A stretch of DNA of 64,000 nucleotides from Pseudomonadota bacterium (GTDB taxonomy: Bacteria; Desulfobacterota; Binatia; UBA9968): NCBI GenBank assembly GCA_021324155.1, contig JAJPJQ010000007.1:1-64000 (forward strand), written 5' to 3'. Below, in pieces: positions 39,385-45,779 of this stretch (position 1 is its first letter; each line of letters opens with the position of its first letter). The position numbers were made by a program, and so were the translations under genes. The notes under the pieces are model-generated. The model was given only the letters and a program-made list of their open reading frames with translations. It was not told the DNA's origin and ran no database searches.

Positions 39385-40230
39385 TCATCGAAGCGACCGC
39401 ACGAGAAACGCTTGTACGCCATTCTCTCTCTGCAAGCGCAAAAACGCCTTTCTGGCCTTGTCTCCCGATGAAAAAATTCCGAATACCGACGAGCCGCTGC
39501 CCGACATCAGAGTCCCCGCGGCACCTTCCTCGGCGAGCTTGCGCTTGAGCCACGCGACTTCTGGATAGCGTCGGAATACGGGCTTTTCCAGGTCGTTGAC
39601 AAGCTCAATCGCGCTCCCGCGAAGCGGCCGCACGAATGAATTAAGGCTAGTCTTTTCAATATTTTTTGTCAACTTAAAAGACAGGCTCCGGTAGGCCCAA
39701 GCGGTCGATACCGGGAACCCCGGATAAACGATCACGAGCCATAATCGGCGGAGCGATTTGAGCGGCGAAAGCCGCTCGCCGATGCCGCGCGCGCGCGCCG
39801 GCCGTCCGAGGATGAAGAACGGCACGTCGGCGCCGATTTTCACCCCAAGCCGCAGCAGCTGCCGCCGATTTTTCTTCAGCCGCAACAGACGATTGAGGCT
39901 GACGAGCACCGCCGCCGCATCGCTGCTGCCGCCGCCGAGCCCCGCGCCCGCCGGAATGCGCTTTTTGATATCGATCGCGACGGGATACTTCGCCGCATCT
40001 TTGCCCAACAGCAGCGCGGCGGCTTTATACGCGAGATTTTCCGCGCCGGAAGGAATTTTCGGATCGTCGCACGTGACGCTTAGGTTCGTGCCGGGCCGCG
40101 CGCGCTCGATCTCGATCTCGTCGTAGAGCGACACCGGCGCCATGATCGTATCGATCAGGTGATAGCCGTCGCGCCGCTTGCCCACGACGCGAAGCGAGAG
40201 ATTCACCTTCGCCGGCGCTCGAAGTTTCAT
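39385..40230 (-). CDS. ispE: 4-diphosphocytidyl-2-C-methyl-D-erythritol kinase
   Basis: A 281-residue GHMP kinase with 'APAKVNLSLRVVGKRRDGYH' at the N-terminus (active-site Lys and Asn), the ATP loop 'IPAGAGLGGGSSDAA' and a C-terminal 'SGSGSSVFG'. It phosphorylates CDP-methylerythritol in the MEP isoprenoid pathway. The ATG at 40230 lies two bases after the stop of an inserted ORF and lacks a visible ribosome-binding site. A second copy of its first ~12 codons, changed almost only at third positions, occurs 800 bases upstream (see 40233-41030). Confidence 0.95.
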   Translation of the reverse strand: MKLRAPAKVNLSLRVVGKRRDGYHLIDTIMAPVSLYDEIEIERARPGTNLSVTCDDPKIPSGAENLAYKAAALLLGKDAAKYPVAIDIKKRIPAGAGLGGGSSDAAAVLVSLNRLLRLKKNRRQLLRLGVKIGADVPFFILGRPARARGIGERLSPLKSLRRLWLVIVYPGFPVSTAWAYRSLSFKLTKNIEKTSLNSFVRPLRGSAIELVNDLEKPVFRRYPEVAWLKRKLAEEGAAGTLMSGSGSSVFGIFSSGDKARKAFLRLQRENGVQAFLVRSLR

Positions 40231-40232
40231 CG

Positions 40233-41030
40233 TTAATCTACGCTCGATATCTTTTCGTTCATTTTGATAGTGGAAAGCGATTCGAAGAACAATTTACGAA
40301 TATCATTCCGACGCTCCACGGGTACGTTCTCTGGGATATGGATCCAGGCGCTTATAAATCGCCAAGAGTCCACTGGCTCCCGATAATGAAACCGAGCGAC
40401 CGCCAGGATTGTCCGGAGTGGCAAATTTTGCGCACCGATCGTACAGGCTGTCGATACTTCCGCAAATGAGAAATTTTCCGAACCGAAAGGCCGTCGATGG
40501 ATTTCCGCCCGACCGCTGCCTGAAGCTATCCTAGGCACGCAAAGAACCGCTGAAGTTCGATCTCTTGGAATCAAGTGACCGATGAATAAAGCGTCGTCCG
40601 ATTGATAATCGCCGTCACGAAGCGCCCGTTTGATCCACTCCGTCAACATAGCGTCGTTACGTTCATTTTCTTCAGGAATGTCGGCGATCCGCCTACCCCA
40701 CCGATCTACCGGATATGTAAACCCCCAAAGCAGAAATTGCTTAAATTTGCTACGTCCAAAGACTTTCATGCCGTATTCGGCCGAGCTACCGCTATCCAAG
40801 TCGACTAAATAATTACTGAACTGCTGCTGAATGGTGCTGATCCGCCCAGCAACACGAAGCCATGTCGTGTCTTTAAAATCGAAGGTCGCTACAGACGACA
40901 CAACAGCCTGTCCTGTAAAGGGCGGCTTCGCAGGAGCAGGATTGCGAAGCTCGACGATCGTGAACTCTCCACCAGCGTACGCCAGCAGAGCTAGAAAGAG
41001 ATTCACCTTCGCCGGTGCCCGCAGTTTCAT
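40233..41030 (-). CDS. Chimeric ORF: ispE-like start joined to an unknown secreted-type protein
   Basis: The first eleven or twelve codons ('MKLRAPAKVNLFL') are those of ispE, not of this protein. What follows, 'LFLALLAYAGGE', looks like the core of a signal peptide, and the remaining ~240 residues ('NYLVDLDSGSSAEYGMKV', 'LWGFTYPVDRWGR', 'SAWIHIPENVPVERRN') match no family I recognise. The body is less GC-rich than its surroundings and uses more AT-ending codons. It therefore appears to be foreign DNA joined in frame to a displaced ispE start. Whether it is expressed is unknown. It stops two bases before the intact ispE. Confidence 0.55.
   Translation of the reverse strand: MKLRAPAKVNLFLALLAYAGGEFTIVELRNPAPAKPPFTGQAVVSSVATFDFKDTTWLRVAGRISTIQQQFSNYLVDLDSGSSAEYGMKVFGRSKFKQFLLWGFTYPVDRWGRRIADIPEENERNDAMLTEWIKRALRDGDYQSDDALFIGHLIPRDRTSAVLCVPRIASGSGRAEIHRRPFGSENFSFAEVSTACTIGAQNLPLRTILAVARFHYREPVDSWRFISAWIHIPENVPVERRNDIRKLFFESLSTIKMNEKISSVD
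40998..41030 (-). repeat. Second copy of the ispE 5' end (partner at 40198-40230)
   Basis: The minus strand here encodes the same eleven residues as the start of ispE at 40198-40230. The two nucleotide copies differ at about four positions, nearly all of them silent third-codon positions. This suggests they come from two different ispE genes rather than from a recent local duplication. Confidence 0.75.
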
Positions 41031-45032: not shown

Positions 45033-45188
45033 CCAGGTTTCCACGCCGGGCCGAGATCGTTCCTTGTCTACAGCCGAGACCTTAATCTCTCTCTCCACTG
45101 GCTCGAATCCACTCCCTCGCTGGGATAAGTTAAGATCGCAGTGGGAGTAAGTTTTTTGAGTACCTTAGCCCAAGAAAGGAGCCAAGCC

Positions 45189-45779
45189 ATGCCCAGAATC
45201 GAAGGCGTAACCAAAGACACCGCGCCCGCGGATTTGCGCGGCATTTTCGAGGAGCAGGAGAAGCAGTACGGCGCGGCGCTTAACACGCTGCGCATCTACG
45301 CGCTCAGGCCGACGATTTATAAAGGCGCGCAGGCGCTCGCGAACGGCATTCGCGAGTCGGGCCTGATCGCGCCCGAGCTGCGCCATCTCGTCTGCGTCAA
45401 GGCGGCGAGCATCAACGGCTGCCCCTATTGACTCGACTTAAACGCATCCAGTGGGATGCAAAACGGCGCCTCGGCGGAGAAGGTGGAAGCGGTGCTCGGC
45501 GACTACAAGAAAAGCCCCGCGCTCTCCGAGCGCGAGCGGCTGGCGCTCGAGCTCGCGGAGCGCATGACCTACACGAATAAGCGCGTCACCAATGGATTTT
45601 TCAAGAAGCTCAAGCGGCGCTTCAGCGACGAAGAATTGGTCGAGCTCGCGGCGGTGATCGCGCTGGAGAACTTCCGCAGCAAGTTCAACACGGTCTTCGC
45701 CGTCGAGGCGCACGGCTTCTGCCCGGTGCCGGCGGTGAAAGCCGCGGCCGACGTCGCGACGAGCCGGTTTCAGGAATGA
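45189..45779 (+). CDS. AhpD-like selenoprotein (CxxU, carboxymuconolactone decarboxylase fold)
   Basis: The frame from the ATG at 45189 (AAGGAG 8 bases upstream) runs to 45779 with one in-frame TGA at 45429-45431. Before it the protein reads 'LVCVKAASINGCPY', and after it 'LDLNASSGMQNGAS', continuing through a complete C-terminal half ('ALSERERLALELAERMTYTN', 'FNTVFAVEAHGF'). In AhpD/CMD proteins this is the redox centre CxxC; the TGA replaces the second cysteine, giving CPYU. A perfect 6-bp hairpin with GU in its loop starts 12 bases behind the TGA (45444-45459), as in bacterial SECIS elements. Full length ~196 residues. Likely a thiol/selenol peroxidase-type or disulfide-reducing enzyme. 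AhpD-like selenoproteins are known from environmental sequences. Confidence 0.88.
45444..45459 (+). promoter_or_regulatory. Bacterial SECIS element
   Basis: GCATCC (45444-45449) pairs perfectly with GGATGC (45454-45459) around the loop AGTG, which holds the G-U pair recognised by SelB. Spacing from the TGA is 12 bases, close to the ~11 bases of the E. coli fdhF element. The hairpin lies inside the coding sequence, as required in bacteria. Confidence 0.82.

Follow-up and report, generated by a model that had tools for sequence, protein, structure and literature searches.

AhpD-like selenoproteins are already known. The AhpD-like 1 group (COG2128), which carries a CxxU motif, was described from 299 sequences in the marine Global Ocean Sampling survey (PMC2398784), and the preliminary description of the DNA studied here was thus correct in stating that such proteins had been reported from marine metagenomes. 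AhpD-like proteins (TIGR01926) are also among the selenoproteins listed in one review (PMC13188914), and the AhpD-like CxxU selenoproteins of COG2128 are covered in another (PMC9312934). In PA0269 and Mycobacterium tuberculosis AhpD, the five-residue relay consists of Glu(-15), Cys(-3), His/Tyr(-1), Cys(0), and His(+4), and PA0269 is a weak peroxidase (PMC3141380). Our literature search found no paper on the selenoproteins of Binatota/Binatia.

Here, we describe a putative selenoprotein gene in a 64,000-nucleotide stretch of DNA (the window) from a Binatia metagenome-assembled genome (MAG). We consider it about 95% probable that this is a functional gene of the AhpD/CMD (COG2128, YciW-like) superfamily, in which a SECIS element would direct selenocysteine to position 81 and the product would act as a CxxU selenol/thiol oxidoreductase.

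Gene structure and reading frame

The features of the gene are collected in Table 1. With the internal TGA taken as selenocysteine, a single open frame runs from the ATG at 45189 to a terminal TGA at 45777-45779. The internal TGA is codon 81, in the context INGC-P-Y-U-LDLN, and the translation places Asn85 at +4 from Sec81. A base-by-base re-reading bore out the earlier proposal that this TGA stands in place of the second Cys of a CxxC motif with the frame intact on both sides. It had also been foreseen that an annotation pipeline would split the gene in two, and standard ORF calling did exactly so, returning ORFs at 45141-45431 (96 aa) and 45456-45779 (107 aa).

Table 1. Positions in the window of the putative selenoprotein gene and its elements.
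Feature	Position	Strand	Basis
Selenoprotein gene, 196 aa with Sec81; AhpD/CMD fold, CxxU	45189..45779	+	Sequence, profiles, orthologues, predicted fold
In-frame TGA (Sec81); Cys in some homologues, including ones from genomes without selB	45429..45431	+	Sequence and homologue comparison
CxxU motif Cys78-Pro-Tyr-Sec81, codons TGC CCC TAT TGA	45420..45431	+	Sequence, alignment
Putative bacterial SECIS hairpin GCATCC-AGTG-GGATGC, 12 nt after the TGA	45444..45459	+	Stem conservation, compensatory changes, codon constraint
Ribosome-binding region, AAAGGAG about 8 nt 5' of the ATG	45173..45188	+	Read directly

Orthologues and selection

We searched the window's genome together with 57 relatives, 58 genomes in all, and found the gene in 20 of them. 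These represent 13 genera including that of the window, 12 of the same family and one of another family of the order. Orthologues in the relatives are 67-76% identical to the window gene. All 20 have TGA at the position of codon 81, and the frame downstream is open except for breaks in two of them (L036 and L037). Because about 20 related genomes retain both the TGA and an RNA hairpin behind it, the internal TGA is almost certainly read as selenocysteine.

Measured against 13 relatives, pN/pS ranges from 0.25 to 0.57 before the TGA and from 0.17 to 0.29 downstream of it, indicating that both halves of the gene are under purifying selection. The lower range downstream suggests that protein-level selection on the part behind the TGA is at least as strong as on the part before it. 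Decay at or behind the TGA in close relatives had been named as an observation that would speak against a selenoprotein; we found conservation on both sides instead.

Among named records, the group is represented by MAGs that carry the label Deltaproteobacteria or Candidatus Binatia. Four Dehalococcoidia/Chloroflexi records (L061-L064) also hold orthologues, at 53-58% identity, with the TGA kept and a covarying hairpin; transfer between phyla is possible in these cases. One record titled Syntrophobacter sp. SbD2 (L056) contains an orthologue that is 70% identical and clusters with the Binatia-type set; the organism name of this record may be wrong.

Cysteine forms and the distribution of selB

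The preliminary description had proposed aligning the protein with homologues to look for Cys at the TGA position, and some homologues do have Cys in this column. One of them (L039, 51% identical) belongs to a genome, G046, that has no SelB above the cut-off; Cys forms in genomes with no selB above the cut-off are also found in G041 (L047) and G052 (L099). The presence or absence of selB does not separate the genomes cleanly, probably because the MAGs are incomplete. One Cys form (L044) comes from a genome that has selB, and three MAGs with the TGA form (G011, G021, and G025) lack a full selB above the cut-off, G021 having a partial one. The missing selB in these three may reflect MAG incompleteness.

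Putative SECIS hairpin

The stem-loop behind the TGA has a predicted energy of -9.6 kcal/mol, and the surrounding 56-nt region is not unusually stable relative to shuffled sequences (z = +0.3). With so unremarkable an energy, the case for a SECIS element would be weak from a single sequence, and comparison decides. A search of Rfam gave no SECIS-type match in the region, a result of little weight for so short a hairpin.

Codons +5 to +9 after the TGA show the strongest synonymous constraint of the gene, ranking first of 168 five-codon windows, with an identity excess at the hairpin codons, given the amino acids, of 0.435 against a median of 0.059. Almost every row has GCA as the codon for Ala86, and the others have GCG, although 11% of Ala codons in the family are GCA. 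Either codon keeps the pairing with the opposite U; GCC or GCT would break it. Among 18 distinct rows, including those from Dehalococcoidia, stem pair 3 is A-U (12), G-C (4), or G-U (2), and stem pair 6 is C-G (7), G-C (2), or unpaired (9). Pairing was observed at 91.7%, compared with 17-53% when the partners were slid, and none of the 500 shuffles or of the slid controls reached the covariation score of 0.205. Together, these comparisons indicate a SECIS hairpin with selection acting on the RNA.

The hairpin had been described as perfect and as starting 12 bases downstream. It is indeed present there, conserved, and covarying, but its sixth (innermost) pair is optional in the family: a C-C mismatch occurs at this pair in about half of the group, leaving 5 bp and a six-base loop (CAGTGC). 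Deeper Sec homologues have stems of 5-7 bp with a GUC, GUG, or GUU loop at an equal offset and of different sequence; among the next-deeper ones are GCTGCC-GTC-GGCAGC and TCTGCC-GTT-GGCAGA, at an equal distance from the TGA. We scored 116 homologues for a stem of at least 6 bp with a G at loop position 1 or 2: of the 71 Sec forms, 60 had one, compared with 2 of the 20 Cys forms and 1 of the 25 that have neither residue. Most of the 11 Sec forms without such a stem belong to the window's own group and have the C-C mismatch. No hairpin is present in the Cys homologues L039 and L047; the Cys form L044 happens to have a 6-bp stem.

Selenocysteine machinery

The window comes from a MAG of 4.8 Mb in 53 contigs, 98% complete (G000). 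The expectation that the organism should carry selA, selB, selC, and selD, a search for which had been suggested as a check, held in full: all four are in this genome, as a selenoprotein gene calls for. A tRNA-Sec lies at C16:257-347 (74.8 bits; SeC(tca) by ARAGORN). On the same contig, selD (68287-69216, 392 bits), selB (69325-71211, 412 bits), and selA (71316-72650, 603 bits) all score above their curated cut-offs and are contiguous (G000:C16:68287-72650). The matched region of selD (L048) contains one in-frame TGA, for which reason the SelD of this genome is probably itself a selenoprotein.

Protein family, predicted fold, and gene neighborhood

The protein belongs to the CMD superfamily by its Pfam match (PF02627, 43.2 bits against a cut-off of 23), and it scores 62.2 bits against the TIGR01926 peroxidase-related enzyme family, below the cut-off of 81.8. 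An AlphaFold2 model is all-helical, with a mean pLDDT of 96.5. Its best matches in the PDB are AhpD-like, peroxidase-related proteins at a TM of about 0.8, among them 2prr, 6k40, 2pfx, and 2oyo, and it superposes on PA0269 and Atu0492 over 140 residues at 1.2-2.1 Å. A fold of the AhpD/CMD peroxidase-related type is thus confidently predicted.

The Glu/His proton relay is not kept. His66 at -15 and Asn85 at +4 are invariant in the 18 of 18 orthologues aligned. The preliminary description had remarked on Asn in place of the His often found at +4; the residue is as it said, but its invariance makes it a trait of the group and not an oddity of a single sequence. A third cysteine, Cys178, in an FCxLP motif, is nearly invariant.

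When we looked for a conserved operon partner in the window and at 15 named loci, the gene itself was all that they had in common, and no AhpC-type neighbor was conserved. Other shared neighbor clusters were confined to small subgroups or belonged to large common families. Elsewhere in the window, a direct repeat of 34 nt, whose copies are 91% identical and lie 800 bp apart, occurs at 40197-40230 and 40997-41030. It forms the start of a GHMP-kinase (ispE-like) gene (39385-40230, minus strand) and recurs at the start of the adjoining upstream ORF (40233-41030, minus strand), as though an insertion of about 800 bp beside the start of the kinase gene had duplicated its first codons.

Further AhpD-like paralogues with putative selenocysteine

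The same class holds many more genes of the CMD fold in which TGA falls at the CxxU position, and when these are included the Sec form occurs in at least 34 of the 58 genomes. The window's genome has at least three AhpD-like Sec genes, the window gene included. The other two we noted, placed at C3:19555-20010 and C5:29760-30158 within the wider loci given next, are AhpD/CMD-like genes with hairpins 10-12 nt behind the TGA: L164 (G000:C3:19430-20130), with an in-frame TGA in CEYU and the perfect hairpin TCCGTCCA-GGC-TGGACGGA, and L167 (G000:C5:29640-30280), with an in-frame TGA in CFYU and the perfect hairpin ACGGAGA-GTT-TCTCCGT. L167 scores above the TIGR01926 cut-off, and L164 above that of no NCBIfam family.

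Paralogue clades include L091-L093, L097/L101, L098/L134, L100, L103-L104, L111, L116, L145, and L152, among others. They have Sec at CxxU and clade-specific hairpins with GGC, GUC, GUU, or GGU loops, and in several the Glu/His relay is missing. Of the nine paralogues scanned, most fall below the cut-offs of named AhpD-like families. We considered whether the Sec form goes together with loss of the Glu/His relay and rejected the idea, as Sec clades occur both with the relay (the CSYU...H clade) and without it.

In a tree of these proteins, Sec clades are interleaved with Cys clades, and nine changes of the Sec label are required, at least five of them forced by well-supported branches. This was a quick tree with many long branches, and the number of Sec origins that it implies is tentative. 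We give even odds to the idea that Binatia-type bacteria harbor an unrecognized radiation of AhpD/CMD-fold selenoproteins, with many paralogous clades bearing SECIS elements of their own, repeated Sec/Cys exchange, and several groups, the window's included, without the Glu/His relay. If true, such a radiation would suggest that these selenols do something other than the peroxidase chemistry of classical AhpD.

Discussion

In the mechanism we propose, SelB carrying Sec-tRNA-Sec would bind the mRNA hairpin 12 nt after UGA81 and insert selenocysteine, a step suggested by the conservation described above and by the presence of selA, selB, selC, and selD. By analogy with the AhpD mechanism, Sec81 would then attack a peroxide or another oxidized or electrophilic substrate, Cys78 would resolve it as a selenenyl-sulfide, and a cellular dithiol system would reduce this bond. 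Having His66 and Asn85 instead of the Glu/His relay would be in keeping with a selenol whose low pKa makes less activation necessary, or with a different substrate.

Two readings would do away with directed insertion of selenocysteine. Were the TGA a true stop, the locus would be a split or decaying pseudogene, which is how the two separate ORFs of the callers would look; this reading is refuted by the conservation data and has next to no probability, as the TGA and the intact frame behind it persist in about 20 independent genomes, pN/pS is low in that very part, and homologues have Cys at exactly this codon. The UGA might instead be decoded in another way, by near-cognate readthrough or through a genome-wide reassignment such as UGA = Trp, and readthrough would likewise yield a full-length protein. 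We regard this as very improbable, given that the window gene and many of its orthologues terminate in TGA, that the homologous residue is Cys and not Trp, and that a constrained hairpin is accompanied by complete Sec machinery.

What the selenoprotein does is a separate matter. Peroxidase activity is the default by family, and this step is weakly supported because the relay residues are not kept and no partner gene is conserved. The protein might carry out some other thiol- or selenol-dependent reduction, such as Bmp8-like reductive dehalogenation, or arsenic or organometal chemistry, a broader possibility that we hold to be rather unlikely. The replacement of the relay by His66 and Asn85 throughout the group and the want of a conserved AhpC-type neighbor would be consistent with it, and the AhpD-fold debrominase Bmp8 turns up both in the sequence search and, at a TM of 0.75-0.80, among the best fold matches (6ohi/6ohj). 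Reductive dehalogenation like that of this fold neighbor would be a fair rival, but the Bmp8 matches are no better than those of other peroxidase-related proteins, and no dehalogenation genes were seen among the neighbors examined.

As a probable selenol/thiol oxidoreductase of the AhpD/CMD superfamily, the protein adds a well-supported group of selenoproteins that occurs in some Dehalococcoidia and across at least 13 genera of a lineage without cultured members. The group falls below current NCBIfam cut-offs, and its genes are split in two by ORF callers. Its paired Sec and Cys forms and its swapped relay residues make it well suited to studying what an enzyme of the AhpD fold gains from selenium.

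Comparison with known systems

Among solved structures, the closest relatives by sequence are PA0269 (2o4d, 2ijc, and 7xw1) and Atu0492 (2gmy), at E values of 1e-12 to 1e-14. They share the CxxC helix-hairpin fold with the window protein but have Cys where it has Sec, and the Glu36/His55 relay of PA0269 corresponds to His66/Asn85. M. tuberculosis AhpD (1gu9 and 1knc) has the CxxC motif and the helix hairpin of the CMD superfamily in common with it; its chain topology differs (TM about 0.5), and its Glu118/His137 relay is absent from the window protein.

The best family match is NF053654, GroundWater_YciW 'YciW-related (seleno)protein', whose name implies both Sec and Cys forms. The likeness is full-length (E = 1.6e-48), and all 20 members of the A2 set match, yet at 164.8 bits against a cut-off of 310, the group of the window gene lies outside the family as defined. 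The AhpD-like 1 selenoproteins, compared here by their description, share the superfamily and the CxxU motif. Against these, the window group scores below the TIGR01926 cut-off, has His at -15 and Asn at +4, and is hosted by Binatia-type MAGs and some Dehalococcoidia. AhpD-like CxxU selenoproteins being known already, the group is a new member or subfamily of them.
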